A DNA stretch of 28,115 nt. It comes from a virus. Made by a program: the position numbers and the translations under genes. The DNA is taken from positions 1 through 28,115 of IMG/VR virus record IMGVR_UViG_3300035698_005765; one strand, given 5' to 3'. Below are positions 1 through 27,750 of the stretch, in pieces (position 1 is the stretch's first letter; each line of letters opens with the position of its first letter). The notes under the pieces were generated by a model. That model had not been told where the DNA came from, searched no databases, and was given only the letters and a program-made list of their open reading frames with translations.

Positions 1-381
1 GTGATTGAATCCACCCTCGTTCCAGGCCTCAAGGTAGTCCCTACCTTCCACCCTGCAACCTTCATCCCACCTAAGTTTAATTTCCTAAACAAACCTTTAA
101 TATGTGAAGACTTAATGAGGCTAGTCATGAATCAGAATTCAAAGAGATCAGAAGAATTGAGCGCACTATTATTATTAAGCCAACATTTCAAGAATCAATT
201 AACACTCTTAATTATTGCTACGAAGTCGGACTCAGAGGATCTACAGTTGATATTGACATTGAGGTCATTAATGGAGAAGTCGATTGCATCGCTTTTGCAT
301 GGAATCCTACACATGCCATCTGCATCCCCTTCCGAGATCACCAAGGAGACTACTTTACAGTCGAACAAGAATATGAAATAA
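1..381 (+). CDS. C-terminal piece of a uracil-DNA-glycosylase-like domain (partial; should be fused to the polymerase)
   Basis: The gene is cut by the left edge of the window, so the GTG at base 1 is probably an internal Val codon. The first 40 or so residues contain KVVPTFHPATF; the HPA tripeptide (bases 49-57) preceded by a hydrophobic strand is the C-terminal active-site loop of the uracil-DNA glycosylase superfamily, which removes uracil from DNA. After about base 120 the frame stays open to a TAA at 379-381, but the encoded residues look like non-coding shadow, whereas frame 3 over the same bases encodes a canonical exonuclease domain. The natural product is therefore most likely a UDG-exonuclease-polymerase fusion, with one base lost (or a -1 shift) near bases 107-121. 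UDG-like domains at the N terminus of family A polymerases are known in some phages. The TAA overlaps the ATG at 381, which makes this look deceptively like two coupled genes. Confidence 0.5.
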   Translation: MIESTLVPGLKVVPTFHPATFIPPKFNFLNKPLICEDLMRLVMNQNSKRSEELSALLLLSQHFKNQLTLLIIATKSDSEDLQLILTLRSLMEKSIASLLHGILHMPSASPSEITKETTLQSNKNMK

Positions 382-2114
382 TGCTTCTTATTGCTAAGAT
401 CATACAAGAAAGGAGGATAGGGAAACGTGGAGCTAATTTTATATTCGATACTCAATTTATTCTTCACAAATATGGCATTGTACCTCGTGGAGAGCTACAC
501 TGTACACAGATCGCCCAAAAGATTATGCTCCCAGATTTCAAGGCAGGCCTTGACTTCGTTGCTACCTCTCACACTGATATTCCTTACTATAAACAAGACG
601 GTAAGCAATGGATAAAGATGGGTGCTGGCACTTGGGAGAACTGGTGGAACTACAACGGATTAGACTCTATTGCCACTGCAGCTGCACACCCGAGACAGAT
701 CGAAGGTCTAATCAAACAAGGAAACCTAAACACCTACAACCGTCAACGTAAACTAATTAAGCCTCTTATCTACATGGCAGAGCGTGGGATTAAGATTGAT
801 GTTGAAGGTATGATAAAATGTAAGGATGAAGAGAAGGCTAAGCTTGACATTCTTATCAAAGCACTCCATAAGAAAGTCGGCTACGAGATCAATCAAGACT
901 CACCACAACAACTAATGCACTACTTCTACGATGAACTACACATTAAACCTTACAAGAAAAAGAACAACAAAGGCCAATGGGTTAAGACCTCAGACGTAGA
1001 CGCACTTAAACGTATAGCAAGACGTAACTATCCTGCTGCTCAGATCATGCTTGATATTCGTGGTTTGAGTAAGCGTATATCAACTTACTTAAATATCAGA
1101 AAGGTAGAACAAGATGGAAGATACAGGAGTAGCTATAAACCTGTCGGAGCGGAAACTGGTAGGCTTAGCAGTGGAAAAACTATATTCGGTACTGGAGGAA
1201 ATCAACAAAACTGGCCGCACGACCTACTTAGATTCTTTCTCTTTGACGAGGGATACATCGGGTATTCCTTCGATCTCAGTCAGATTGAGAATAGAATTGT
1301 CGCCTACGTTGGTGGAGTCATATCTCAAATAGAGGCCTTTGAGACTGAAGTAGATTTACATAGGCTTACTGCTTCAGTCATTATAGGCAAACCTTATAAT
1401 GAAATATCCTCTGAAGACGGCTCCTCACCTCTTGGCGATGGTCGCCAGTCCGAACGCTTCTGGGGTAAGAAAGGCAACCATGCCATCAACTACGATGTTG
1501 GCTATAAAACCTTCGCACTCAAGAACGAAATGCCTGAAGGCGAAGCCAAGCATGTAATTGAACTAGTCCACCGAGGCTATCCACAGATTAGAGGTAGTTA
1601 CCACTTAACCATCCAACAGATGCTTAAGAAAAATAGAATAATTAAAAACCTCTTCGGTCGTAGACGTCTATTCCTAGGTCCTATCATTCCTTCCTATCCT
1701 AACGTATCCAAAGGCGCTTGTGAGTCTACCTACCGTGATGCTTATGCTCAACTCCCACAATCTACTACCGCTGACAAGATTAACGAACAAGGAGTTGAAT
1801 ATATCTATTACAATCAAGACCTATTTGCACCTATTGAATTACTAACTCAGATTCATGATTCAGTTGTGTTTCAAATTCCTTTATCAGTTCCTTGGGGAGA
1901 GCATGCTAAGATGTTACTACTAATCAAACAGTCATTAGAACAACCTTTATACTGGCATGAGACTGAAATTAAAACTCCAGCTGATCTATCAATAGGCTAT
2001 AATATGAATAAAGATGACATGATAGAACTAAAAAGCAAAGACATTCCTACCAGTCAAAGTCAACTTGCAATTAAATTAGAGGAGGTCTATAGTAAACTAT
2101 TAAATAGGAGATAA
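108..2114 (+). CDS. Family A (Pol I-like) DNA polymerase with 3'-5' proofreading exonuclease, 5' end frameshifted
   Basis: This is the replicative DNA polymerase of the phage. Counting from base 108, just after a TGA at 105-107, the frame encodes exonuclease motif I (DIE, D50/E52, bases 255-263), motif II (N110 and D114 in GANFIFD) and motif III (Y182...D186 in YNGLD). Polymerase motif A follows as FDLSQIE (D389, E394), then a motif B-like KKGNHAINY (454-462) and motif C IHDS (H583, D584). The frame has no ATG, GTG or TTG between 108 and 381. The ATG at 381 lies inside the exonuclease domain, after motif I, so a start there would give a protein without exonuclease motif I. The real N terminus must come from the upstream UDG frame. 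Motif C carries HDS where HDE is usual, and a His (H458) aligns with the O-helix Lys of E. coli Pol I. The stop TAA is followed two bases later by the next start codon. Family identity is firm; the state of the 5' end is not. Confidence 0.88.
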   Translation, partial: RLNEASHESEFKEIRRIERTIIIKPTFQESINTLNYCYEVGLRGSTVDIDIEVINGEVDCIAFAWNPTHAICIPFRDHQGDYFTVEQEYEIMLLIAKIIQERRIGKRGANFIFDTQFILHKYGIVPRGELHCTQIAQKIMLPDFKAGLDFVATSHTDIPYYKQDGKQWIKMGAGTWENWWNYNGLDSIATAAAHPRQIEGLIKQGNLNTYNRQRKLIKPLIYMAERGIKIDVEGMIKCKDEEKAKLDILIKALHKKVGYEINQDSPQQLMHYFYDELHIKPYKKKNNKGQWVKTSDVDALKRIARRNYPAAQIMLDIRGLSKRISTYLNIRKVEQDGRYRSSYKPVGAETGRLSSGKTIFGTGGNQQNWPHDLLRFFLFDEGYIGYSFDLSQIENRIVAYVGGVISQIEAFETEVDLHRLTASVIIGKPYNEISSEDGSSPLGDGRQSERFWGKKGNHAINYDVGYKTFALKNEMPEGEAKHVIELVHRGYPQIRGSYHLTIQQMLKKNRIIKNLFGRRRLFLGPIIPSYPNVSKGACESTYRDAYAQLPQSTTADKINEQGVEYIYYNQDLFAPIELLTQIHDSVVFQIPLSVPWGEHAKMLLLIKQSLEQPLYWHETEIKTPADLSIGYNMNKDDMIELKSKDIPTSQSQLAIKLEEVYSKLLNRR

Positions 2115-2116
2115 AA

Positions 2117-2422
2117 ATGAAGAGATTTATTATAGTAGTTCTGGTTTTATTAGTAAGTGTATTATTCTATGGGTTTAAGTATACATCTCCAGAGACAGGG
2201 CAAAGAATTAATATATCTGGTGAAGATCATTCATGGTCATATTCTAGAGATGAAGTACATAAGATTATGGAAGATTATGTACGTAAAACTCAAGAGCTGA
2301 AAAAAGATATAAAGTTAAATTTCTCTATAAGGACAAACTCCTATTGTAGAGTTGAATATATTACTATATCATACAAACCACTATTTACAGTTAAAGAAGA
2401 AGGAACTCCATTTATTAAATAA
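2117..2422 (+). CDS. Small protein with N-terminal signal-anchor/signal peptide, unknown function
   Basis: A 101-residue protein that begins with a Lys-Arg pair followed by about 15 strongly hydrophobic residues (roughly 4-20), typical of a membrane anchor or Sec signal peptide. The rest is hydrophilic and probably lies outside the cytoplasm. The start is supported by AGGAG at 2106-2110, inside the end of the polymerase gene, and by a two-base gap to the polymerase stop, which suggests translational coupling. I recognise no domain. Its place between two replication genes gives no clear hint; small membrane proteins in phage early regions are often host-takeover or superinfection-exclusion factors, but that is inference only. 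Confidence 0.6.
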   Translation: MKRFIIVVLVLLVSVLFYGFKYTSPETGQRINISGEDHSWSYSRDEVHKIMEDYVRKTQELKKDIKLNFSIRTNSYCRVEYITISYKPLFTVKEEGTPFIK

Positions 2423-2499: not shown

Positions 2500-3729
2500 A
2501 TGCCTCGACTGACAAGGAAGTTACCCAACTGGATATCTGCGTTCATGCTCTACACTGAAAACACTGAGCCTCCTATCTTATTTAGAAAATGGTCTGCTAT
2601 CTCTGCCATTGCAAGTGCACTTCAAAGAAAGGTCAGGGTAAACTGGGGATCTAATTTAATATTCTATCCTAACTTATACATAGTCCTAGTAGGCCCAACT
2701 GCCACTGGCAAAGGTACTGCTATGAACCCTGCACTTAGTATCCTTAGTGAAATACCAGTCATTCGTATGAGTGCTCAAGCCACTTCACTCCAAGCACTAA
2801 TTCGTAGGCTTAAGGAAACTAACCTAACTGACATAGATATGGAGACAGGTGAACAACAGTATCATAGTTCTATGACTATCTTCTCCAAGGAATTTACTGT
2901 CTTCCTAGGCTATCATAATAAAGAACTAATGGCTTCACTCTGTGACTGGTTTGACTGTGATAATAGATGGGTGTATGAAACTATCTCACGGAAGAAGGAG
3001 GAGATCATAGGTGTTTGGGTTAACTTACTTGGTGGCACTACACCTGACTTAATTCAAAGTTCCTTACCTATTGAGTCAATAGGTGGTGGACTTACCGGCC
3101 GAATCATCTTCATATATGAAGAGAAGAAGGCAAAGTTAGTTGTCTTACCTACTCAAACTTCACATGAGTCTGATCTACGAAACTTCTTAATCCATGACTT
3201 AGAAAAAATCTCTATGCTATCAGGAGGTTTCAAATGGACTGAGGACTTTGCATCTGCCTGGTCTGACTGGTGCTATCACGCTGAAGACAACCCACCATTC
3301 TACGACCCAAAGTTCGATGGATATATTGGAAGACGTAGATCTCACGTCATGAAACTATCAATGATAGTAAGTGCCTCACATGGAAAACATGACCTAGTGC
3401 TAAGCAAAGATGACCTGGACGAAGCTATTGCACTGGCGGAGGAAGCTGAAGTTAAAATGGGCCTAGTATTTAGAGGCGTAGGCAAGAGTGACATTGCAAG
3501 TTCAATGAATAAAGCTATTGCATTTATGAAGAACTCAAAGACAACTGACATTCCTTTCTATCAGTTTGCTAGGTACTTTAGTAACGACATGGATAAGTTA
3601 ACAATGGATAGAGTGTTAGATACTCTTGAGTCAATGAAGATGGTACAGGTAATGAGTAAACCTGGAACAGATAATATGATTAAGGTGTTAGATTTAGAAG
3701 GGAAAAATGAAAAGAAGATCATTCCTTAA
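2500..3729 (+). CDS. DUF3987-like P-loop ATPase, probable replicative helicase/primase component
   Basis: A 409-residue protein with a clear Walker A motif, GPTATGKGT, at residues 65-73 after a hydrophobic strand. The region around residues 130-200 (acidic SKEF strand, CDWFDC helix, then LLGGTTPDLI and a Gly-rich GGGLTGR stretch) has the layout of DUF3987-type ATPases. These are common in phages and mobile elements next to polymerases and are thought to act as replicative helicases, often with a separate or fused primase. No primase/TOPRIM domain is visible here. The start ATG at 2500 has only a weak, distant GAAAGG upstream; the first residues (PRLTRKLPNWISAF) resemble the usual start of the family. 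The last 23 bases overlap the next gene. The protein is shorter than DUF3987 fusions that include primase domains. Confidence 0.7.
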   Translation: MPRLTRKLPNWISAFMLYTENTEPPILFRKWSAISAIASALQRKVRVNWGSNLIFYPNLYIVLVGPTATGKGTAMNPALSILSEIPVIRMSAQATSLQALIRRLKETNLTDIDMETGEQQYHSSMTIFSKEFTVFLGYHNKELMASLCDWFDCDNRWVYETISRKKEEIIGVWVNLLGGTTPDLIQSSLPIESIGGGLTGRIIFIYEEKKAKLVVLPTQTSHESDLRNFLIHDLEKISMLSGGFKWTEDFASAWSDWCYHAEDNPPFYDPKFDGYIGRRRSHVMKLSMIVSASHGKHDLVLSKDDLDEAIALAEEAEVKMGLVFRGVGKSDIASSMNKAIAFMKNSKTTDIPFYQFARYFSNDMDKLTMDRVLDTLESMKMVQVMSKPGTDNMIKVLDLEGKNEKKIIP

Positions 3730-3973
3730 AGCAATATGTTTGACTGTAGCTTCATTAGCTATCAATCCTGTATTAACTATAAAGTCAATCTCTGATGTAG
3801 GTGTAACAAATACATATAAAGAAAGTCTTCAGCAGCAAATAGACTTCTTATATAATGCTCATATAGCCAATATTAGAAAGGCTATGAACACGTTAATAAT
3901 AGATCCATATATTGTAGATATAAATGATTTAATAATAGACAATTCAAAAATTGAACAGTCTAATCCTCCATAG
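3707..3973 (+). CDS. Tat-like leader joined to a fragment resembling the phage portal protein
   Basis: An 88-residue protein. Residues 1-21 start MKRRSFLKA, which matches the twin-arginine (Tat) consensus RRxFLK, followed by a hydrophobic segment. Residues 41-75 align with residues 377-412 of the portal protein encoded at 20210-22162 on the opposite strand: 22 of 36 positions are identical with a single one-residue gap, and almost all other changes are conservative (for example DFLYNAHIANIRKA against DFLFNSHVANVRKA). The nucleotide sequences have diverged, so this is not a fresh duplication. The similarity ends about five bases before a palindromic repeat at 3936-3962. The gene overlaps the ATPase gene by 23 bases and has its own GAAGGG ribosome site, so it is probably translated. 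Its 3' end overlaps the end of the convergent 1815-aa gene by 14 bases. The function is unknown; it may be a remnant or a decoy-like exported peptide. Confidence 0.6.
   Translation: MKRRSFLKAICLTVASLAINPVLTIKSISDVGVTNTYKESLQQQIDFLYNAHIANIRKAMNTLIIDPYIVDINDLIIDNSKIEQSNPP
3936..3962. repeat. Palindromic element A (27 bp) at the convergent junction
   Basis: A dyad with arms TAGAC/GTCTA, one-base spacers and a core ATTCAAA-A-ATTGAAC. It carries the stop codon (TAG) of the - strand 1815-aa gene at its right end and lies in the last codons of the + strand portal-fragment gene. It could act as a bidirectional transcription stop, although no U-tract follows. It is one of eight related elements, listed as A to H. 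Confidence 0.65.
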
Positions 3974-6900
3974 TCTTATACACCCTAGCCCGTTCAACAG
4001 CAGACCTAAATATTTTAAGCCCCATTGTTTTGTCTGCCTTTTCCCTTTTTAATCTACCTAATATCTTACCATATCTTTTCCTCTCATTAACCGTCTCAGC
4101 TGTGTACAAGCCAACCCTAGCGTCTTCCAAATCTCTAACCGTCTCTCTCAATGACGCTGTAGCTTCAGCCTCAGCCCAGGATAGTGCGGAGGTAAATAGT
4201 GTATACGCAGGTAAGTTATTCTTCAGCGTAGCAACATAGGTATCTCTTAATGTCTCTTCATCTCCTTCTATAATAGCCTTCTTAAAATATTCCATAGATG
4301 AATATCTAGACATACCCTTTGAACTCTGCATCATTATGTCTAAAGGTTTGAACTCCATATCATCTTTCATATACCTTAAAATACTAATAGGTATTGGAGC
4401 CTTAGCAATGGTCTTGAGTATTCCTTTAGCTTTTTCAATTCCTTCCCACTTATAAATATCATCATTCTTAAACCCTGACAGAGTATGACCTGTTGCTATT
4501 TCAGATATTAACTGAGGTACGGGAGCTACCTTACCTCCAATCTTCCTAAGAGGATTCATAATCAGCTCAGGGAAATCTCTAAACTGTTTACCCCACCTCA
4601 TATATCTCTCAGTGCCATCTTCATACCTTCCCATAAACAGAAGAGTCTTCTTCCCCATAGTATTTCCAAACATAGTCTTATCCATAAATGTGTAGTCTTT
4701 GTCCTCATAATACTGAGGATTCTCTTCCATGTCTTTATTTCTATTCAATACATTTAGAAGGTTCATACCTATACCAAAATACAATCCAGCTCTTGCCCAG
4801 AACCTCCAGCCCATCTTTTGCCTTACACCCTTTGTTTCCTTATATACCTTACCAATTCCTGTAGGAGCTAATGCCTGCCTAGTCGTTGACACAGTCCAGT
4901 CAGCAGACAACAAAGACCAAGTTAACATCTGTACTTCCTTAGGAGTCATCATTAATGTATCCCAGTTCTGCCCACCGAAGGTATCATTAATAAACTGACC
5001 AATTTCTCTCTTTAATTTCTTAGTATCTACAGCATCTAGATTTGGGTCCATCTTTGCAACCATACTCTCATACCCATAAAGTTTTAATGTATCATGTAGG
5101 TATGTCCACAAAGCCTTATCCCATACAGAATTAGCACCCTTCATAAATGAAGTTAGTTTATTTGCTAAAGGTACATTACTGCTTACTCTAGCTAGATCAT
5201 TAAGATACCCTTGGATTCTATTTATAGGAATATCAGCTGTGGCACCATACTGTACTCCTCCATTTACTATAGAATCTCTTGCAATAGCTTCTTTAGTATA
5301 TATATCAAACTCTCCACGTACCATTGCATTGTATATCTTAACAGGATTAAAGTAAATATTGATAGTTTTAAGTGGTCCTATTACAGCTACACCTACCTCA
5401 AATAATGATCCATGATGGAATAGAGATAAGGTCAGCTTACCTTTCTTCAACACTCCATTAAGTGCTTCATATGCAGACACTACAGGGTGATCGAATCTTT
5501 CTTCAAATATAACCTTCAAAGGCCTAACTAAATCAGGGTGAATTCTTACCCTAGACTCCTTAACAAACTCACCCTTTTTCTTTGCCTCTCCTTTCTTTAA
5601 AGGAATACGTCTTGTCAATGCCGGATAGTTTACCTCTATCCAGTCCATAGGAGCTCCTTCACTCCGTTCAATCAGAAACAGCCCATCCTTTTTTAAGTCC
5701 AAAAGAGCCTCAATAAATTCAGTATTAGCAATAGCCCTATTTATAACTCCTGAATTAATCTTAATAATCTCAGCTACGTTAAGAGTTTTAGGCATAAATC
5801 CTCTTTCAATAGCCATCTCCATAGTTGGGATATGCCTTGGTTCAAGTGATTTAGCAAAGGTACTAAACCAGTTAGCTGCTTCCGCTTTTTTATGCTTAGG
5901 TATAACATATAAATGAGTTATGTAATCTTCTATTTGTTTAGTTGTTAAATCAGGCCATACTTTCTTTATCTCTGCCCACTGCTTATTATGGAAAACCTTA
6001 GTCTGTTTAGCTATATCATCAAGGATCTTTTTATCTTTATTTAATACCTTCTTCAAATCTGGTCTATTTAATTTTTCAGGTACTTTGGTCTTTTCAACTG
6101 CAAAGTAGGCAGCCTCTAATTGTTTTTCAGAGTATCCATATTCAAGCTTATTAACAAACTTATTTACATTATAATTTAAAAGATCAATCCTACCTCTCCT
6201 ATTTCTTACTATTTCTCTAGCCTCTTCCTTAACATTAGTGTCTGGCCTAGGTAATTTTTCAGGTAGCTTGACTTTCTTGGGTTTTTTAGATGTGGTTAGT
6301 TTGTCGTAGAGTTCTTGAATAGGTACACCGGAGTAGAGTTTAACTCCAGGGTCAGTGCCTTTGACTTCATTTATAAGACCTTCCTCAGCCATCATTTCAT
6401 CTAACGTTTCCCAGGGAGACTCACTCTTACGTTCTGACTTACTCATATCCATTCTTCGTTCAGCTATTCTAGCTTCCATCTCACCTGGGTCTTTGAGGTA
6501 TTCCTTGTGGGCATCTTTTTTAAGTATCTTATCTAATGACTTTCTAATTACATTATAGTCATGTTCACTTACTTGATATGCTAATCTTTCTACTTTATCA
6601 GTGGCAGCATGAGGAGACAATTTAGTATGCAGTCTATCATTTAACTCAATAGTTTTCTCTATTTCCTTAATTACATCTGGGTGAGAGACAAATTCCCTCA
6701 TCTCTCTAAGCATCTTACTCACTAAAATATCTTCTTGAAATGCAGGACTAGTCCCTTGAAATATAGACCTTGTATGTACATTAACTGCATGTTGAAGTTC
6801 ATGAATTAGTGTATCATTAGAAAACCCATACATACTTATATTATTATCCTTAGGACTATACGATCCTTTTCCTTTCTTACCAGGAAATATTGAGACAGAC

Positions 6901-9407
6901 ACATCTTTAATTTGAGGTAATTTGTCAAATAGGTCTGGGTAGTCAACAATATCTTTAACAAAACCTGTCCAAGCACCTTTCTGATATTCTTCTTTTGTCA
7001 CTAATCCTTCTAAGTATGCCGCTTTATTAGGTCTAATAAACTTAGGTTCTTTAATTGTAGCTTTACTATCATCTATCTCATATCTCCACTTCTTATCCTT
7101 ACCAAGCCAGAAACCAGTTGCATCAAACACTTCTTTATTTCTATATAAATAAGCTAACTTCCAGGGCTTTCCCTCTGCCCTACTCTCAGAAAATATACCT
7201 TTGTATTTAGATGCAAAATCAAATACTATTCCAGGTATCCTATCCAAAGGAATCATCATGTTAAGATCAACACCAGACGGTTCAATTTTTAAACGGTCTG
7301 TCTGCTTAGCCCACCCATCTAACCTATCCAAATAATCAGACATTTTCTCTATATCTTCCAACTTCATCTCATCAAATATTCCTGCCGGAGCTTCATCACC
7401 TTTTGCCCATACCTTAAATTGATTATTTAACTGGCTTAACAATTCTCTAGCATAACCAGCATCAACCTTTCCATCTAGTTCACTGTTAATCTCAGTTTCC
7501 ATCCTAGTCAACAGTTGATTTGGGGTGTCTATTTTTTCATATTCAGGTAGTAGGTCTAGGTTTCTTTCAGTTAGTTCTGCAGGTTGTCGGAATTGAGATT
7601 CTTCAGGAGTGGTGAGAGGTTCAGGTTTAGGCTCCTCAATAATAGGTTCCTTAACAATAACTGGCTCCTCCACAGTCGGTTTAATTTTTGAACGATCTTT
7701 AACAGCCTCTAACTTAGAATACTCCTTAGGAATAGGTAATACTTCACCAGACTCTCCTAATCTCTGTCGATCATACAACTTAAAGGCAGATGTAATATAT
7801 GACTTATGAAGTCCTTCATCATAAGATTGGCCAGCATCTTCAGCCTGTTTCATCATCTTATCAACATACTTCTCTATTCTAGGCATAGCAATATCAGTGT
7901 AATCTTGTAGGCCTTTCTTTATAAAACTTAAGAGTTCAAAAGGACTTAGAAATGCTTCTGCATTCTTTATTTCTTTCTTTATTTTTCTATGGATAGATAT
8001 CACATCAACTTTCTTCTTGACAATTTCTCCTTCCTTAACAGCATCAAGTTCTTTTTCAGTCCTAATCTTAGGCTCCTCAGCAACCTCACCAACTACCCTC
8101 TTCCCTATCTCAGCAGCCCTAATAACAAACGCATTACTAATCTCTCTACCTTTACTTCCATACCACTTGTCACCTATCTTCTCATACACATGACCTTTTT
8201 TACTAACAAACTCATACTCAGGCACTGCATCTACAGACTTAGTCGAACGCTTTGGAACACTCTTAAGTGGTTTGTCTAACAACTCTACATGCCTTGAAAT
8301 CGTAGGCTCACCAGCCTGCTTAGTAAATTCCATTTTATAAGGCTTAGCCCCTATCATCCTCTTAAATCCTGCCCACCAAGGTTTATCAACAGCTGTAATG
8401 ATTTTCTCAGAAGGAATCTTTACATCAATCCCTTGCTTCAGTGCATCTTTATACTGTTGTCTATTAATTCCTAAGTCCTTCAGCATATCAGATTCAGCTC
8501 TTGAAAGGATCTCTTCCCTACCTCTACCATGGAATTCCCTAATCTTCTCAGGAGAAATGTAGACATCCTTTGGAAGATTATACTTTGCCGAAACATCTCT
8601 TACAAACTTTGTGTATAAAGACTGTAAACCTGTATATACTTTAGGTGTCACTGACTTACCAATGCCACCTCCAGCAGCAACCTTCCAGGCCTGATCAACT
8701 GTCCACACCAGGTCCTTAACTCTCTGAGTAGTATCTTCTGGTAACATTTCTTGAAGACCTTTACCAGCACCAAACTCATATTCTTCCTCAGACTGTAGAG
8801 AAATAAGTGCATTCTCTACCTCAGCTAATCCCATGAAGGTTCCAACACCTATAACTGTGGCCAATGGATTGATAAGTAACCCAGCTGTAACACCTCCTAT
8901 TGCTAAGCCTTCAACTAACTTCTGAAATGTAGGCTGACCACTAAGCCCTACCTCCTTCGATAACCCATCTAAATAATCATATGCCATAGATGGCTTAATA
9001 CCAAGTGACTCAGCCATAGCATAAGCATTTTTACTTTTTATTATATCAGCTTCACTATCTCTAACAGCCTTAAGTGTCCCTTCCCAAGCTCTACTAATCC
9101 AGGACTTCTCTTCTATCTCAGGGGCTGGCCAGATCCCAGGCTCTCTATCTATACCAGGAAGAACTATAGGACTACCAGGTTCAAAGCTTATACCACTGGG
9201 CTTACCTTCAGCTTTAGCTATCGGATTAAAGCTAATGTTATTAAAGTCTAGCCCATCAGACGGTTGATCCACTTGACCCTTCGGTTCAAAGCTAATATTC
9301 TCAAAGTCTAAACCATCATCAGATAATTGAACTTCTGGATCTATATTAGTCTCCAATCCCATTGGAGGGAGAGTCTCTTCAATGACATTCTTAAATACAT
9401 TCAGCAT
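3960..9407 (-). CDS. Giant 1815-aa multidomain virion/ejection protein with an HExxH metallopeptidase domain (polyvalent-type)
   Basis: This is the last and largest gene of the virion operon. Residues about 10-80 hold three degenerate repeats of LDFxNISFxP type. A hydrophobic stretch at about 163-200 could cross a membrane. Residues about 590-625 are a Pro/Glu-rich linker. A domain at about 705-985 contains HELQH (869-873) and a downstream GEMEAR (975-980), the pattern of zinc peptidase-like domains in large polyvalent phage proteins; H869 and H873 would be two metal ligands and E976 or E978 a possible third. A C-terminal region with FGGQNWD near 1476 and a short hydrophobic segment near 1550 also resembles polyvalent phage proteins. 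Polyvalent proteins are packaged in the head and injected with DNA, and the position after the tail and ejection genes fits this. The start has AGGAG just upstream. Two palindromic elements lie inside the coding region. No lytic transglycosylase or RNA polymerase motif was found. Confidence 0.7.
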   Translation of the reverse strand: MLNVFKNVIEETLPPMGLETNIDPEVQLSDDGLDFENISFEPKGQVDQPSDGLDFNNISFNPIAKAEGKPSGISFEPGSPIVLPGIDREPGIWPAPEIEEKSWISRAWEGTLKAVRDSEADIIKSKNAYAMAESLGIKPSMAYDYLDGLSKEVGLSGQPTFQKLVEGLAIGGVTAGLLINPLATVIGVGTFMGLAEVENALISLQSEEEYEFGAGKGLQEMLPEDTTQRVKDLVWTVDQAWKVAAGGGIGKSVTPKVYTGLQSLYTKFVRDVSAKYNLPKDVYISPEKIREFHGRGREEILSRAESDMLKDLGINRQQYKDALKQGIDVKIPSEKIITAVDKPWWAGFKRMIGAKPYKMEFTKQAGEPTISRHVELLDKPLKSVPKRSTKSVDAVPEYEFVSKKGHVYEKIGDKWYGSKGREISNAFVIRAAEIGKRVVGEVAEEPKIRTEKELDAVKEGEIVKKKVDVISIHRKIKKEIKNAEAFLSPFELLSFIKKGLQDYTDIAMPRIEKYVDKMMKQAEDAGQSYDEGLHKSYITSAFKLYDRQRLGESGEVLPIPKEYSKLEAVKDRSKIKPTVEEPVIVKEPIIEEPKPEPLTTPEESQFRQPAELTERNLDLLPEYEKIDTPNQLLTRMETEINSELDGKVDAGYARELLSQLNNQFKVWAKGDEAPAGIFDEMKLEDIEKMSDYLDRLDGWAKQTDRLKIEPSGVDLNMMIPLDRIPGIVFDFASKYKGIFSESRAEGKPWKLAYLYRNKEVFDATGFWLGKDKKWRYEIDDSKATIKEPKFIRPNKAAYLEGLVTKEEYQKGAWTGFVKDIVDYPDLFDKLPQIKDVSVSIFPGKKGKGSYSPKDNNISMYGFSNDTLIHELQHAVNVHTRSIFQGTSPAFQEDILVSKMLREMREFVSHPDVIKEIEKTIELNDRLHTKLSPHAATDKVERLAYQVSEHDYNVIRKSLDKILKKDAHKEYLKDPGEMEARIAERRMDMSKSERKSESPWETLDEMMAEEGLINEVKGTDPGVKLYSGVPIQELYDKLTTSKKPKKVKLPEKLPRPDTNVKEEAREIVRNRRGRIDLLNYNVNKFVNKLEYGYSEKQLEAAYFAVEKTKVPEKLNRPDLKKVLNKDKKILDDIAKQTKVFHNKQWAEIKKVWPDLTTKQIEDYITHLYVIPKHKKAEAANWFSTFAKSLEPRHIPTMEMAIERGFMPKTLNVAEIIKINSGVINRAIANTEFIEALLDLKKDGLFLIERSEGAPMDWIEVNYPALTRRIPLKKGEAKKKGEFVKESRVRIHPDLVRPLKVIFEERFDHPVVSAYEALNGVLKKGKLTLSLFHHGSLFEVGVAVIGPLKTINIYFNPVKIYNAMVRGEFDIYTKEAIARDSIVNGGVQYGATADIPINRIQGYLNDLARVSSNVPLANKLTSFMKGANSVWDKALWTYLHDTLKLYGYESMVAKMDPNLDAVDTKKLKREIGQFINDTFGGQNWDTLMMTPKEVQMLTWSLLSADWTVSTTRQALAPTGIGKVYKETKGVRQKMGWRFWARAGLYFGIGMNLLNVLNRNKDMEENPQYYEDKDYTFMDKTMFGNTMGKKTLLFMGRYEDGTERYMRWGKQFRDFPELIMNPLRKIGGKVAPVPQLISEIATGHTLSGFKNDDIYKWEGIEKAKGILKTIAKAPIPISILRYMKDDMEFKPLDIMMQSSKGMSRYSSMEYFKKAIIEGDEETLRDTYVATLKNNLPAYTLFTSALSWAEAEATASLRETVRDLEDARVGLYTAETVNERKRYGKILGRLKREKADKTMGLKIFRSAVERARVYKTMED
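7274..7300. repeat. Palindromic element B (27 bp), inside the 1815-aa gene
   Basis: Arms CAGAC/GTCTG, single-base spacers and core GTTCAAT-T-TTTAAAC. It encodes residues about 703-711 (TDRLKIEPS) of the giant protein, just before the metallopeptidase-containing domain. Confidence 0.6.
7673..7699. repeat. Palindromic element C (27 bp, degenerate arms), inside the 1815-aa gene
   Basis: Core GTTTAAT-T-TTTGAAC with poorly paired outer arms. It encodes DRSKIKPT at residues about 571-578, directly before the Pro/Glu-rich linker. Its peptide DRSKIKP parallels DRLKIEP at element B, because both copies are read in the same frame. Confidence 0.5.
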
Positions 9408-11575: not shown

Positions 11576-12052
11576 CTATTCTCCGTCAAGATTGTTCAAA
11601 ATTTGAACGTACTTGCTAATGTCAAATGAAATAAATGTCTGCATGTCTGCATTGTATCTCTTAGCCATTTCAATTAAGAAAGGTACATCAGTATAAGCTA
11701 ATAACCTATCACAACCTTGAGCTATAGCATGCTTAGACATAAATGCAAACCCTTCCATCCAGAACTTCTCCTTAACTTTACTATACCCATACACACTGTA
11801 GAGTAATAAGTTCTTTGTATGTGTAGCATCATCGTAGACTAGCTTAGTCAATATAATCCCATTAAGACTAGACTTCTCTTCACTCTTATCATAAGACGCC
11901 CAGCAAGTCATCTTACCACTTAACAATGCAGAGAGGATTCTATTCATACTGTCTGAATGTTTAGTGACAATAGGAGGAAGTGATTGTTCTACTGCATATT
12001 TAATAACATCCCAGAAACCAGACACTTGGTCTGGTAATAGTCTAGTTATCAT
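11576..12052 (-). CDS. GNAT-like N-acetyltransferase-fold protein, 158 aa
   Basis: The order of elements fits the compact GNAT-like proteins found among podovirus tail genes: an N-terminal helix with LPDQVSGFWDVIKYAV, a basic strand pair (KMTCWASYD, NGIILTKLVYD), the LLLYSVYGY strand, then FAFMSKHAIAQGCDRLLAYT and a last strand TFISFDI. GNAT enzymes transfer an acetyl group from acetyl-CoA; I do not see a clear R/QxxGxG/A pyrophosphate loop, so it may be structural or inactive. The gene ends in TAG, showing that amber is used here as a normal stop. Its last codons are made from palindromic element D. It starts two bases after the previous gene ends, with AGGGGA upstream. Confidence 0.5.
   Translation of the reverse strand: MITRLLPDQVSGFWDVIKYAVEQSLPPIVTKHSDSMNRILSALLSGKMTCWASYDKSEEKSSLNGIILTKLVYDDATHTKNLLLYSVYGYSKVKEKFWMEGFAFMSKHAIAQGCDRLLAYTDVPFLIEMAKRYNADMQTFISFDISKYVQILNNLDGE
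11587..11615. repeat. Palindromic element D (29 bp)
   Basis: CAAG...CTTG outer arms, three-base spacers and a perfect core GTTCAAA-A-TTTGAAC. It lies in the last codons of the GNAT-like gene, 14 bases upstream of the start codon of the 295-aa gene. Confidence 0.65.
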
Positions 12053-13997: not shown

Positions 13998-14306
13998 TTA
14001 GTCCTCTATTTGACTTACTCCAGCAATTTGTTCTTCAACCAAGTCCATCCCAAGTCCTTTCATATCAACTGCAATAGCATTAGACCAGTCATTCACACCT
14101 TGAGTATTTCTATTAATAATTTCTAACTGTCTCATACCTGCCATAATGAGAAGCATTGGATGAACTGTAGACCAGTAATTAGTGTCAGTCTCAGCAGTTA
14201 ACTCATGTGAATAATAAAGACCTTTTATATCAAGTGAAATCTTTTCTTCAGTAGGTACATTAAGAAGAACAGCATTATAGTTATGATCACCAGCCGTTAT
14301 ATCTAC
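13998..14306 (-). pseudogene. C-terminal half of the head-tail adaptor, after an in-frame amber codon
   Basis: The reading frame of the adaptor gene continues without any shift past the TAG at 14307-14309 for 102 more codons to a TAA at 13998-14000, one base before the ATG of the next gene. The peptide (VDITAGDHNYNAVLLNVP..., SHELTAETDTNYW, HPMLLIMAGMRQLE) looks like the C-terminal half of a podovirus head-to-tail adaptor. It has no good start codon or ribosome site of its own next to the TAG. It should be read as one gene with 14307-14717, interrupted by a point mutation, stop-codon readthrough or a base-call error. Confidence 0.7.
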
Positions 14307-14717
14307 CTAACCAACAAAAGATTCAATATCACCTACTTCAGCGTCTTCTGGAATGTGGCGAGTTAGACAAGGTGAATAGTAAAGTGGGACTCCTACACCA
14401 CGTGAGGCTGGAAGACCTGTTAAATAACCTTTAGTTAAATCTTGTAAACTTTTTTTCTTGAGCTGCCAACGTGCTGTTACTGATCCAACCCACACCTCCT
14501 TGATTGCTCTACAGTGTGGAAACGAAGCACTAAAGTGACCTATCTCAACAAACCTAAAGCATGAAGCCCCAGACTTCTGTGTCTCATCCATACGATCAAG
14601 GAACTTCCTACCTTCATTAATATAAAAATCAGCTCCATTGTCTGTGAAGTCAGCATTGACTAGATCAAAGCGTCCTGAGATAGTACGAAACTGAGTCCGT
14701 AATTGTAGTAAATTCAT
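14307..14717 (-). CDS. Head-to-tail adaptor protein, N-terminal half, ended by an in-frame TAG
   Basis: The adaptor ring joins the portal to the tail. The N-terminal part is helical and carries the elements expected in these proteins: an early helix with TQFRTISGR, then FYINEGRKFLDRMDETQ and a strand/turn with CRAIKEVWVG. I chose the ATG at 14717 rather than the upstream TTG at 14732 because GAGG stands five bases before this ATG, and the TTG falls in the edge of palindromic element E. As translated the product has 136 residues; read through the amber codon it would have 239, which agrees better with the family and closes the 309-base gap that would otherwise lie before the next gene. Downstream of the capsid gene is the usual place for an adaptor. 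Confidence 0.65.
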   Translation of the reverse strand: MNLLQLRTQFRTISGRFDLVNADFTDNGADFYINEGRKFLDRMDETQKSGASCFRFVEIGHFSASFPHCRAIKEVWVGSVTARWQLKKKSLQDLTKGYLTGLPASRGVGVPLYYSPCLTRHIPEDAEVGDIESFVG

Positions 14718-14730
14718 CTTAACCTCAATC

Positions 14731-14757
14731 AAGACTGTTCAATTTTTAAACGGACTG
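14731..14757. repeat. Palindromic element E (about 27 bp)
   Basis: Core GTTCAAT-T-TTTAAAC with partly paired flanks, located between the capsid hairpin, with which it shares a few bases, and the adaptor's ribosome site. Confidence 0.6.
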
Positions 14758-19436: not shown

Positions 19437-19465
19437 TAAGTTTGTTTAAAATTTGAACGGTCTTA
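19437..19465. repeat. Palindromic element F (29 bp)
   Basis: TAAG...CTTA outer arms and core GTTTAAA-A-TTTGAAC. Its right end is the TAA stop of the 154-aa gene; its left end lies just before the scaffold's ribosome site, so it nearly fills the gap between the two genes. Confidence 0.65.
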
Positions 19466-19927: not shown

Positions 19928-20210
19928 CTTTTTTATCCTCCAGTATTTGTAAGAAGATATCAGGAATACTTAAGAAAAAAGCTACAGCCTTCCTTCTACC
20001 TTTTATATCACCTAAGTGAATTAATGTCTCTGATGAATTAGGTACTACCTTATACCCTTGATCATCAGTATGAGGCTCACCAACTAAATCATATTCAATA
20101 GCTGCATTCTTAGCTAGCCTACTTAGTTCATCAACTATATCTAACCATATAAAGGACTCTTTAAATTCTTCTATATCTGACTTAGTTGATCTTATAGTCA
20201 TCTCATCCAT
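19899..20210 (-). CDS. Small portal-adjacent protein, 103 aa, unknown
   Basis: A helical, acidic protein (IEEFKESFIWLDIVDELSRLAKNA) with a conserved-looking core, ETLIHLGDIKGRRKAVAFFLSI, and a charged, disordered end (DKKDDNRRDETD). It shares a TAATG overlap with the portal gene and overlaps the next gene by 29 bases, so translation is probably coupled. Genes of this kind commonly follow the portal gene in podoviruses, but I know of no assigned function. Confidence 0.55.
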   Translation of the reverse strand: MDEMTIRSTKSDIEEFKESFIWLDIVDELSRLAKNAAIEYDLVGEPHTDDQGYKVVPNSSETLIHLGDIKGRRKAVAFFLSIPDIFLQILEDKKDDNRRDETD

Positions 20211-22162
20211 TAGTATTCTCCTACAGGAACAATGTTACCAGCGTTAGCCTGTGCATCAACTTCATCATCAGGCATTCCTTGACCCTGAATCTCATTAACA
20301 TTTCTACGGAAGTCTTCTACATTCTTCGCTCCCATCTGTTGTGCTATGTACATGAAGATTCTAGTTATATCAAACTTCTGCATTAACTCTGGAGTTGTAC
20401 CTATGGTTTGGAACATCTGTAACCAAGCCTCGGAGAAATTACCGCCTGGTATTGAGCCGTCTCTTGGTATAAGGTCATAGCCTACAGCTAGATCATAAGG
20501 TGAAACAGCAATTGACCCTTCTTTTTTTCCAAACTGTTTAGCTAGTTGATTACTATACCTACCTGTAATTCTTACAAAAGTTTCTTTATTTAAATATTGC
20601 TGTGTATGGACAGCAAACATAGTCCCTATATCCTGCATAAACTGCATACCTACTATCATAGCTATTCGTTGCAGTCTAGAAATAGCACTTCCACGTGTAC
20701 CTTGAAATTCACCTTTTGTCAATCGTTCAGGTCCACCTTGACGTTGAGCACCCTGCATAGATTGATCTGCACCTGAGATACGATCCATCCAAGATGTAAT
20801 ATAACCAGAATCAGCTATATTTGATCTTGTAATATCATTAACTTGTAGCTGCTGAACAACCTTATCAACTCCTCTTCCCCAAGCAGGTCTACGTAAGCGA
20901 ATTAATTTACCTGGTTCAGGATCCTTTAAATCATTAATATTAACCAAGTAAGGATCAACAACCAGCATATCATTAATGGCCTTACGGACATTAGCCACAT
21001 GCGAATTGAATAGAAAGTCCAGTGTATGTTGTAGTCCATGAAGAACCTCCATACGTCCAATAGGTGTTATTGAGTATCCATCGTACTCAGGAGATGCTAC
21101 AGCAGCTGGATACATACCGTGATGATGGTCAGCTTTATTACACTGAATTATTACATCGTCTGCAGCCAGTGCAAAGAACCATTTTTCTGGAGATTCACTG
21201 GTACCTAACCCCCACTCCTTTGGGATTAAGTTAACATACATCTTAATTATATCTACAGGATTTGCTGAACTAGTCATATCACGTCTAACATCAGTAGGTC
21301 CACCATGTCTAGTTTCACGCTCTGACTGATCATTTGATAAAGCAGATTTTTTACCTTTTTTCTCATGTAGATATTTAACATTAAACATTTCAGAGTCAGG
21401 TTGAGCTTCTTCCGATAGTACATTCATTAAGTTATCACGATCTATCCAACCAAAAAATTCACCTTCTTGGATTCTATCAGAAGACACACATGGATCAGGT
21501 AGCCACATATAAGGATCAATATTGCTAAGGTCATTACCTTCAAATAGTAAAGTGTCTATGAACTCTACACCTGTAGTGGTATCATCACCTAACTCTGATT
21601 GGGTAGTTATAGATGTTTTAACAGGTTTCTTTCCATACTGTCTTACCCATCCAGGGATTCCAATACCTACTCCATAACATAAAGAATCACGTAAGACTGT
21701 GTGTAATGCCAAGGGAACCTTAGTCTTAATACAATGTAGACGAATAACTAACTCCATCAACATTGCACCTATTGTATCATCATCTTCAACCCCTTCATAC
21801 TGAAACATAGGATCTTGGAAAAAGGCCATTGAAAGATAGGTTAACAAAGCCTCAAGCATTGAGTAGGAATAAGGGAAGACTATCGACACAGGCTTCGTTG
21901 AGTCCTTTTTCTTTAACCTATCCTCTGAATCCTTCAAGTCAATATAGACAGTGTTCTTCTTATCTATCTCACGCCATGCAGGAAATCGTTTACTAATTTC
22001 ATTCCTTGATTCTCTAGCACGAGCCCAGATCTTACCTCGTAAAGCAATATGAAAATCAGAGTCAGGCTTTAGCTTAAGGCCTTCTGGATAAGTATAGTCA
22101 TATTCTTTACCTGAATAATCAACCTTCTGAGTATCAGATTCGCCCTGTACAATGTAAGGCAT
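20210..22162 (-). CDS. Portal (head-to-tail connector) protein, 650 aa
   Basis: The portal forms the ring through which DNA enters and leaves the capsid. The length and helical wing, the conserved-looking segment GLQHTLDFLFNSHVANVRKAI (about 376-396), the following DPYLVNINDL, the Gly/Arg-rich PGKLIRLRRPAWGRG and a C-terminal long-helix region (SAISRLQRIAMIVGMQFMQDI) fit podovirus-type portals. The C-terminal 50 residues are low in complexity (GQGMPDDEVDAQANAGNIV). AGGAG precedes the ATG. A diverged copy of residues 377-412 appears in the small + strand gene at 3707-3973. The terminase genes that normally precede a portal gene are not in this window; secreted and fibre-like genes stand in their place. 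Confidence 0.75.
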   Translation of the reverse strand: MPYIVQGESDTQKVDYSGKEYDYTYPEGLKLKPDSDFHIALRGKIWARARESRNEISKRFPAWREIDKKNTVYIDLKDSEDRLKKKDSTKPVSIVFPYSYSMLEALLTYLSMAFFQDPMFQYEGVEDDDTIGAMLMELVIRLHCIKTKVPLALHTVLRDSLCYGVGIGIPGWVRQYGKKPVKTSITTQSELGDDTTTGVEFIDTLLFEGNDLSNIDPYMWLPDPCVSSDRIQEGEFFGWIDRDNLMNVLSEEAQPDSEMFNVKYLHEKKGKKSALSNDQSERETRHGGPTDVRRDMTSSANPVDIIKMYVNLIPKEWGLGTSESPEKWFFALAADDVIIQCNKADHHHGMYPAAVASPEYDGYSITPIGRMEVLHGLQHTLDFLFNSHVANVRKAINDMLVVDPYLVNINDLKDPEPGKLIRLRRPAWGRGVDKVVQQLQVNDITRSNIADSGYITSWMDRISGADQSMQGAQRQGGPERLTKGEFQGTRGSAISRLQRIAMIVGMQFMQDIGTMFAVHTQQYLNKETFVRITGRYSNQLAKQFGKKEGSIAVSPYDLAVGYDLIPRDGSIPGGNFSEAWLQMFQTIGTTPELMQKFDITRIFMYIAQQMGAKNVEDFRRNVNEIQGQGMPDDEVDAQANAGNIVPVGEY

Positions 22163-23004
22163 TAGATTGGTTCTCCTAGTTTATCCATTATAAACTCAAA
22201 ATGGACTGCAATTAAATCTACATTAACTCCACAGGTTCCAACATTAGTGTATTTTAATATCATCCCTATATCATCACGAGCAACAGCTCCAGTGATACCA
22301 GTAGTAAGTCGAACTCTTTCAAGTCTATTCACTGCAGTTGCTGCAGAGGTTGCATTTATAGTAGTAGTTGCCCCTGTTACAAGCTCTCCAGAATTAGCCT
22401 CTACATTATTATACTCTAATTCCCAATTAACAGTACCAGTGTTTGCAGCTGTTTGATGACAGAAATCTACATCAACTTGTATTGCTTCACCTGCATCCAT
22501 TCTGAAAGGAACATGTAGAGAATAATGAGCATCATCACCTTCAGCAAATATCAAAGTAGGGAAGACACTTAATCTACTTACAGTTGGAGAAGTAGCACCA
22601 AGAGTCCAAGAGGCTGCACTAACTCTAATGTGCCTATTAACTCTAGCATCACCAGCCAAAGTAAGCTCACCATCGGTTGCAATATCTAAATGATTAGCTC
22701 CAGCACCAAAGAAGCCACTTTGAGCAGTTATCAATCCAGCATCACTTACTAAAACTGTGCTATCCTGTATTATCCTAGCCCCACCATCACCACGAACTAC
22801 TGCATGATCTGTGATAACAGCTGTAGATGATAATATATCAGCTAATGTAGGCAGACTACCTTGGATAACCACATGATCTGCCGCTGCAGGAGCTGCTGCA
22901 GATATTGGTGCAGTACTTTCAATACCAGAAGTATGAGGAACATCAGCATCATCATACTGATATACATCTATTGCATCACCTATTCGTATTTGTTGCTTTG
23001 CCAT
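22162..23004 (-). CDS. Fibre- or appendage-like structural protein, 280 aa
   Basis: The N-terminal part has the texture of phage fibre repeats (TADILS-type turns, ITDHAVVRGDGGARIIQDS, TVLVSDAGLITAQSG). The C-terminal half (about 150-280) is a jelly-roll-like beta domain (YSLHVPFRMDAGEAIQVDVDF, TVNWELEYNNV, GMILKYTN). It may be a head fibre or tail appendage. Unusually, the ATG has no recognisable Shine-Dalgarno sequence: palindromic element G abuts it directly, and the upstream gene's stop codon lies inside that element 12 bases away. Translation may depend on coupling to the upstream gene. Confidence 0.55.
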   Translation of the reverse strand: MAKQQIRIGDAIDVYQYDDADVPHTSGIESTAPISAAAPAAADHVVIQGSLPTLADILSSTAVITDHAVVRGDGGARIIQDSTVLVSDAGLITAQSGFFGAGANHLDIATDGELTLAGDARVNRHIRVSAASWTLGATSPTVSRLSVFPTLIFAEGDDAHYSLHVPFRMDAGEAIQVDVDFCHQTAANTGTVNWELEYNNVEANSGELVTGATTTINATSAATAVNRLERVRLTTGITGAVARDDIGMILKYTNVGTCGVNVDLIAVHFEFIMDKLGEPI

Positions 23005-23032
23005 AAGTTTGTTAAATTATTGAACGATCTTA
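23004..23032. repeat. Palindromic element G (29 bp)
   Basis: TAAG...CTTA arms and core GTTAAAT-T-ATTGAAC. It contains the stop codon (TAA) and last four codons of the 1429-aa gene and touches the start codon of the 280-aa gene. Confidence 0.65.
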
Positions 23033-27723: not shown

Positions 27724-27750
27724 CAGATTGTTCAAATTTTGAATTATCTG
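27724..27750. repeat. Palindromic element H (27 bp)
   Basis: CAGAT/ATCTG-type arms and core GTTCAAA-T-TTTGAAT. It abuts the stop codon (27751-27753) of the upstream secreted gene and ends just before the ribosome site of the 132-aa gene. Confidence 0.6.

Follow-up and report, generated by a model that had tools for sequence, protein, structure and literature searches.

Structural proteins of phages are mostly familiar as complete products of late genes. The SU10-type portals (PF23899; PDB 8zkk, gp5) are homologous to residues 27-75 of an 88-residue ORF (3707-3973) that we describe here, and the ORF keeps their invariant Q, N, H, N, R, N, DP and D. It differs from them in having about 8% of the portal length, in lacking wing, clip and crown, and in adding a leader of its own. 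Like Tat signal peptides (TIGR01409), this leader consists of RRSFLK and a hydrophobic run and scores above the curated cutoff; unlike them it has no AxA site, its cargo is not a folded enzyme domain, and export is a prediction. SaPIbov5 Ccm is likewise a structural-protein homologue encoded by a separate gene outside the morphogenesis cluster (PMC8569155). However, Ccm is a satellite's capsid-protein homologue that redirects assembly, whereas here the phage itself carries the short portal piece, known from its sequence.

A small ORF with a Tat-like leader and a portal segment

The window, that is, the whole stretch of DNA analyzed (28,115 nucleotides), is the 28-kb record of a virus of bacteria and encodes an SU10-type portal and a major capsid protein. 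On its plus strand, a DNA polymerase A gene is followed by a small membrane-type ORF, a DUF3987 primase gene and ORF 3707-3973, which is probably expressed early with the primase, judging by its operon position. The start codon of the ORF lies within the final 23 bases of the primase gene, and its 3' end runs into a palindrome (3937-3961) and into the stop of a convergent gene for 1815 aa. The features are as follows.

381-2114, plus strand (same direction as the ORF): DNA polymerase A gene of the replication module (PF00476, 1e-39)
2500-3729, plus strand: primase-like DUF3987 gene, directly 5' of the ORF and overlapping its start (PF13148, 3e-14; phrog_14296, 3e-57)
3696-3702, plus strand: AGAAGGG, Shine-Dalgarno-like, 4 bases 5' of the ATG, within the end of the primase gene
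3707-3973, plus strand: 88-aa ORF with ATG start, predicted Tat-like leader plus portal fragment (GC 0.28, window 0.39)
3707-3784, plus strand: leader, residues 1-26, MKRRSFLK and a hydrophobic run (TIGR01409, hydropathy, AF2)
3785-3931, plus strand: portal-homologous segment, residues 27-75, strongest at 41-75 (3827-3931) (alignment, portal profile, AF2)
3937-3961: palindromic element AGACAATTCAAAAATTGAACAGTCT, read through by the last ORF codons and kept at the primase end in relatives
3960-9407, minus strand: large convergent gene, 1815 aa, its stop overlapping the ORF end
20210-22162, minus strand: the phage's intact portal gene (650 aa), from the family that supplied the fragment (PF23899 SU10_portal, 2e-15; PDB 8zkk portal gp5, 3e-63)
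20927-21073, minus strand: portal stretch matched by the ORF, residues 364-412

The small ORF between polymerase and primase (2117-2422, plus strand) encodes 101 aa with an N-terminal run resembling a membrane anchor.

The sequence-only reading had described ORF 3707-3973 as an RRSFLK leader fused to a fragment of the phage's own portal, and both halves of this description held up. On TIGR01409 (NCBI), MKRRSFLKAICLTVASLAINPVLTIKS scores 17.9 bits against a cutoff of 16.7, and by this profile the leader passes as a Tat motif. In all the DNA fetched, 4761 distinct frames start with ATG, and no other one has RRxFLK with a hydrophobic run behind it. The hydropathy of the leader reaches 2.0. Residues 10-35 of the ORF hold no canonical AxA signal peptidase site, the nearest sequence being SLA at 16-18. 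The charge bias of the leader suggests an N-in topology, and the product would be targeted to, or associated with, the membrane.

As first noted, residues 41-75 are identical to portal residues 377-412 at 22 of 36 positions. Gapped local alignment (Smith-Waterman) lengthens the match to ORF 27-75 against portal 363-412; the score was 127, compared with 30.4 +/- 4.4 (maximum 58) for 3000 shuffles. The portal was the sole other match to the ORF in a search of the whole record (E = 5e-13), and a profile of 66 relatives' portals found it with i-E = 1e-11. Among Pfam, PHROG and PADLOC families none fits better than portals, so that the refutation by an unrelated family envisaged in the sequence-only reading did not come about: the ORF product (P0001) has no Pfam match at E <= 1, PF23899 included, its best PHROG is a family of unknown function (E = 0.055), and it matches the portal profile of close relatives only. 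With a significant alignment and portals as its best match, the ORF classes as a homologous fragment of the portal family; at 88 aa, with ~50 of the 650 portal residues, it is not a full-length portal. Alignment thus identifies residues 27-75 as a true portal homologue, a captured fragment. A split second copy of the full portal was rejected, there being no more portal similarity flanking the fragment, and action as an antisense RNA is unlikely because the two transcripts have the same sense across the matched stretch.

The AlphaFold2 (AF2) model of the ORF product shows helices at residues 3-19 and, longer, at 21-65, with low confidence (mean pLDDT 63.6). In the portal model a helix at 371-399 follows a beta-rich clip-like region, also with low confidence, and the exact placement of the segment is too uncertain. 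By the usual order of portal domains, this helix may be the stem helix leading into the channel loop. The residues that follow RLR are visible in the intact portal gp5 but missing from the solved portal VP1 in the released state, as would fit a mobile loop. Mini-proteins of relatives, described below, include the loop after RLR; ORF 3707-3973 ends before it. The view that the captured piece comprises the post-clip helix and the beginning of the next loop is, jointly with the explanation we prefer below, evenly balanced.

Substitution pattern and a variable slot behind the primase gene

Relative to the consensus of 71 distinct portal segments, the ORF carries 12 substitutions, which average +1.42 in BLOSUM62 score, and has lost one codon in frame. 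Simulated neutral AT-biased drift to equal divergence from the portal gave -0.53 +/- 0.53, with 0 of 3000 runs reaching +1.42, and 45% of these runs acquired a stop. When the seven ORF residues never seen in portals were tested alone, 0.6% of drift runs reached the observed value. Even at columns invariant in the 71 portal sequences the ORF departs conservatively (F to Y, N to D). Neither the unconstrained substitutions nor the frame damage expected of a drifting remnant was found, and the conservative substitutions argue against free drift. At the DNA level third positions are saturated (pS 0.87, pN 0.21). P0001 agrees with the portal consensus at 24 of 36 positions, a distance equal to that of the most divergent portals sampled; the fragment may come from an unsampled portal that already had these residues, and the conservative pattern would then be older than the capture. 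The 28% GC of the ORF could reflect recent foreign DNA or relaxed constraint.

No close relative of the fusion was found in IMG/VR, GTDB (84,980 species genomes) or phage records, and a degenerate DNA pattern of leader plus portal motif had no match in IMG/VR.

The last base with portal similarity is 3931, and the palindrome starts at 3937, in agreement with the sequence-only reading, which had gone on to suggest that the fusion arose by recombination at such elements. This suggestion stands in part. The insertion abuts an element that is found at the primase stop in relatives, where the slot is empty or otherwise filled, but the portal gene and the leader/portal junction are both free of such elements, so that excision of the portal piece is left unexplained by palindromes. 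L077 is the closest of the relatives with a primase match (its primase is 76% identical). It has the stop codons of the primase and the convergent gene right next to the palindrome and therefore lacks ORF 3707-3973. The palindrome is located at the primase stop in L092 and L112 as well, and in the window and L085 an inserted ORF displaces it by 140-210 bases. At the primase loci of other relatives the slot either contains nothing or is filled by small ORFs of unrelated kinds: G023, G024 and G026 share one family, and G006 and G009 have different ones. There is thus a variable cargo slot 3' of the primase gene, with the palindrome as its right border. A search using the terminal part of the convergent gene revealed no more filled slots. 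An unrelated family of small ORFs (about 70-86 aa) occupies the same slot in L098, L108 and L102.

Palindromes of the form AGAC-GTTCAA-nnn-TTGAAC-GTCT are interspersed in the window, mostly at gene borders (3937-3961, 7275-7299, 7674-7698, 11589-11613, 14732-14756, 19439-19463, 23004-23032 and 27725-27749); seven sites compare with 0.01 chance matches expected, and the copy at 23004 came from the repeat search. The terminator scan did not call the element at 3937-3961 as an intrinsic terminator, and Rfam gave no RNA family in the window or in four portal loci searched alongside. At 13998-14738 (minus strand) the window has a gene broken by an in-frame stop, which is a single intact frame of 258 aa in relatives.

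Portal mini-genes in related phages

We searched the whole records behind the relatives' portals and found further short, free-standing portal ORFs in four related phages (G024, G027, G040 and G066). They lie in replication/recombination modules at the following positions.

L078, 1773-2006, minus strand: portal mini-gene
L079, 1830-2102, minus strand: portal mini-gene
L081, 3995-4240, plus strand: portal mini-gene
L201, 2019-2411, plus strand: portal mini-gene

The best scores of these mini-proteins against portals are 87-117, compared with about 31 +/- 4.5 for shuffles. Those of G024 (77 aa), G040 (81 aa) and G027 form one family (46-61% identity to G024), with dN 0.24-0.54, dS 1.2-2.1 and dN/dS of about 0.2-0.4, values that indicate purifying selection. 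A RecB/PD-(D/E)XK-like nuclease is encoded in the same module as each of their genes, and an AAA ATPase is close by in G024 and G040, domains having been tested for G040 only. The G066 mini-gene (130 aa, with a Cys-rich tail) lies between DNA polymerase and primase, the position that corresponds to ORF 2117-2422 (plus strand) of the window. All five mini-genes, ORF 3707-3973 included, are on the strand opposite their own portal.

Like ORF 3707-3973, the four mini-proteins are short and free-standing, carry the portal stretch NDxLxVDPYxxNxxDL and are encoded in early-type modules. Unlike it, they have no Tat leader and run on through RLRRPxWGxG, which is missing from the ORF. On the portal profile they cover positions 402-443 and the ORF 379-417, the common part being 402-417. 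ORF 3707-3973 is not orthologous to the G024/G027/G040 family, which it matches with scores of 32-45 versus 127-133 to portals, and it is a separate case. Among 5718 short ORFs scanned, with L032, L065 and L084 set aside, the portal was the only structural gene with internal free-standing copies. Other short ORFs matching internal fragments were mostly antisense or low-complexity frames, and the split portals in L061, L065, L069, L072, L074 and L076 are contig ends or frameshifts rather than free-standing fragments. Portal mini-genes, as recognized by homology, thus recur in this phage group. The observation appears new, and our literature search found no paper describing portal mini-genes. 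Recurrent, selected early mini-copies of one portal stretch would, if true, indicate a testable use of portal mimicry.

Candidate roles and origins of the fusion

The explanation we prefer, although we hold it with only even confidence, is that ORF 3707-3973 is a real small gene, a captured portal fragment behind a Tat-like leader, which encodes a selected, early, accessory, membrane-directed protein. A Tat-like export or anchor leader would have been joined to a captured piece of a portal gene, and the resulting small gene would occupy the variable cargo slot with which the replication operon ends. The leader would take the product to the inner membrane, where the portal-derived amphipathic helix would be its working surface. 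The likeliest action would be mimicry, the portal-like surface occupying a partner that normally meets the portal, either a phage assembly factor or a host sensor. We hold this step only tentatively; about equally likely, the helix would simply be reused as a membrane-active element. Equally tentative is the broader idea that phages of this group repeatedly make early portal-mimic mini-proteins (decoy, competitor or assembly regulator), with the version in the window Tat-directed to the inner membrane. For a selected gene we count the Shine-Dalgarno-like stretch, the overlap with the primase gene, the homology far above chance, the conservative changes, the leader match, the slot, the mini-genes in four relatives and the portal's position as the sole structural gene with such copies; against it we count the lack of an orthologue of the fusion, the AT-richness, the possible origin from an unsampled portal, the missing AxA site, the low-confidence AF2 model and the fact that the relatives' mini-genes are leaderless and cover a partly different stretch.

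The sequence-only reading had also allowed for an inert remnant, an option that the conservative substitutions disfavor. A recent capture from a divergent phage by slot recombination, landing by chance behind a hydrophobic start and having no function, nevertheless accounts for a fusion seen in one genome only, for its AT-rich composition and for a distance from the portal consensus like that of the most divergent portals; we consider it doubtful but a serious contender. The departures at invariant portal columns are hard to fit to it, as are the intact start, Shine-Dalgarno-like stretch and Tat motif and the purifying selection on the relatives' mini-genes. The other option of that reading was that the peptide enters or obstructs competitors' portal rings, either by itself or at the membrane, for which the long helix predicted for the portal segment and the precedent of SaPIbov5 Ccm (PMC8569155) can be cited. 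Yet the leader would send the peptide into or through the membrane, where it would be remote from portals under assembly. The charge bias suggests a cytoplasmic N-terminus, and a portal piece that is anchored or exported in this orientation would end up on the periplasmic side, which is not a place of portal assembly. A helix like that of the portal, lying at the inner membrane or past it, would thus miss its targets, which weakens the idea for this ORF. Moreover, the phage's own portal would be equally exposed, and early expression is deduced from gene position; we regard such interference as unlikely.

Avs-type STAND proteins sense folded protein broadly. Some of them recognize portals (PMC12931631), and the product could be a decoy for such a host immune sensor, since mini-genes in replication modules are plausibly expressed ahead of the portal and such copies come from the portal and from no other structural gene. 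However, a piece of 35-50 residues may be too small for Avs, and Tat export would take it out of the cytoplasm; among the readings considered this is the least probable. Only slightly less improbable is a scar of intein homing, in which repair of a break at a portal intein site lost flanking DNA or captured it ectopically. An intein bearing a LAGLIDADG domain interrupts one relative's portal precisely at FLFN|SHVAN, a site that falls between residues 50 and 51 of the ORF, at the middle of its portal-like part (27-75), and another relative's portal has a 15-residue deletion across this site; but the relatives' mini-genes lie downstream of the site, and the stretch is also the most conserved, so that inteins and detectable fragments are expected there anyway.

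The intein is at about 11192-12214 of L067, within the most conserved portal stretch. The deletion, in the portal of L042 (10001-11890), is clean and in frame, removes FNSHVANVRKAINDM and is either real or an assembly artifact. Intein, deletion and fragment may coincide through homing breaks, or only through the high conservation of the stretch. Since an intein inserts in this stretch and one relative has a deletion there, the stretch can usefully mark recombination and homing events in portal genes.
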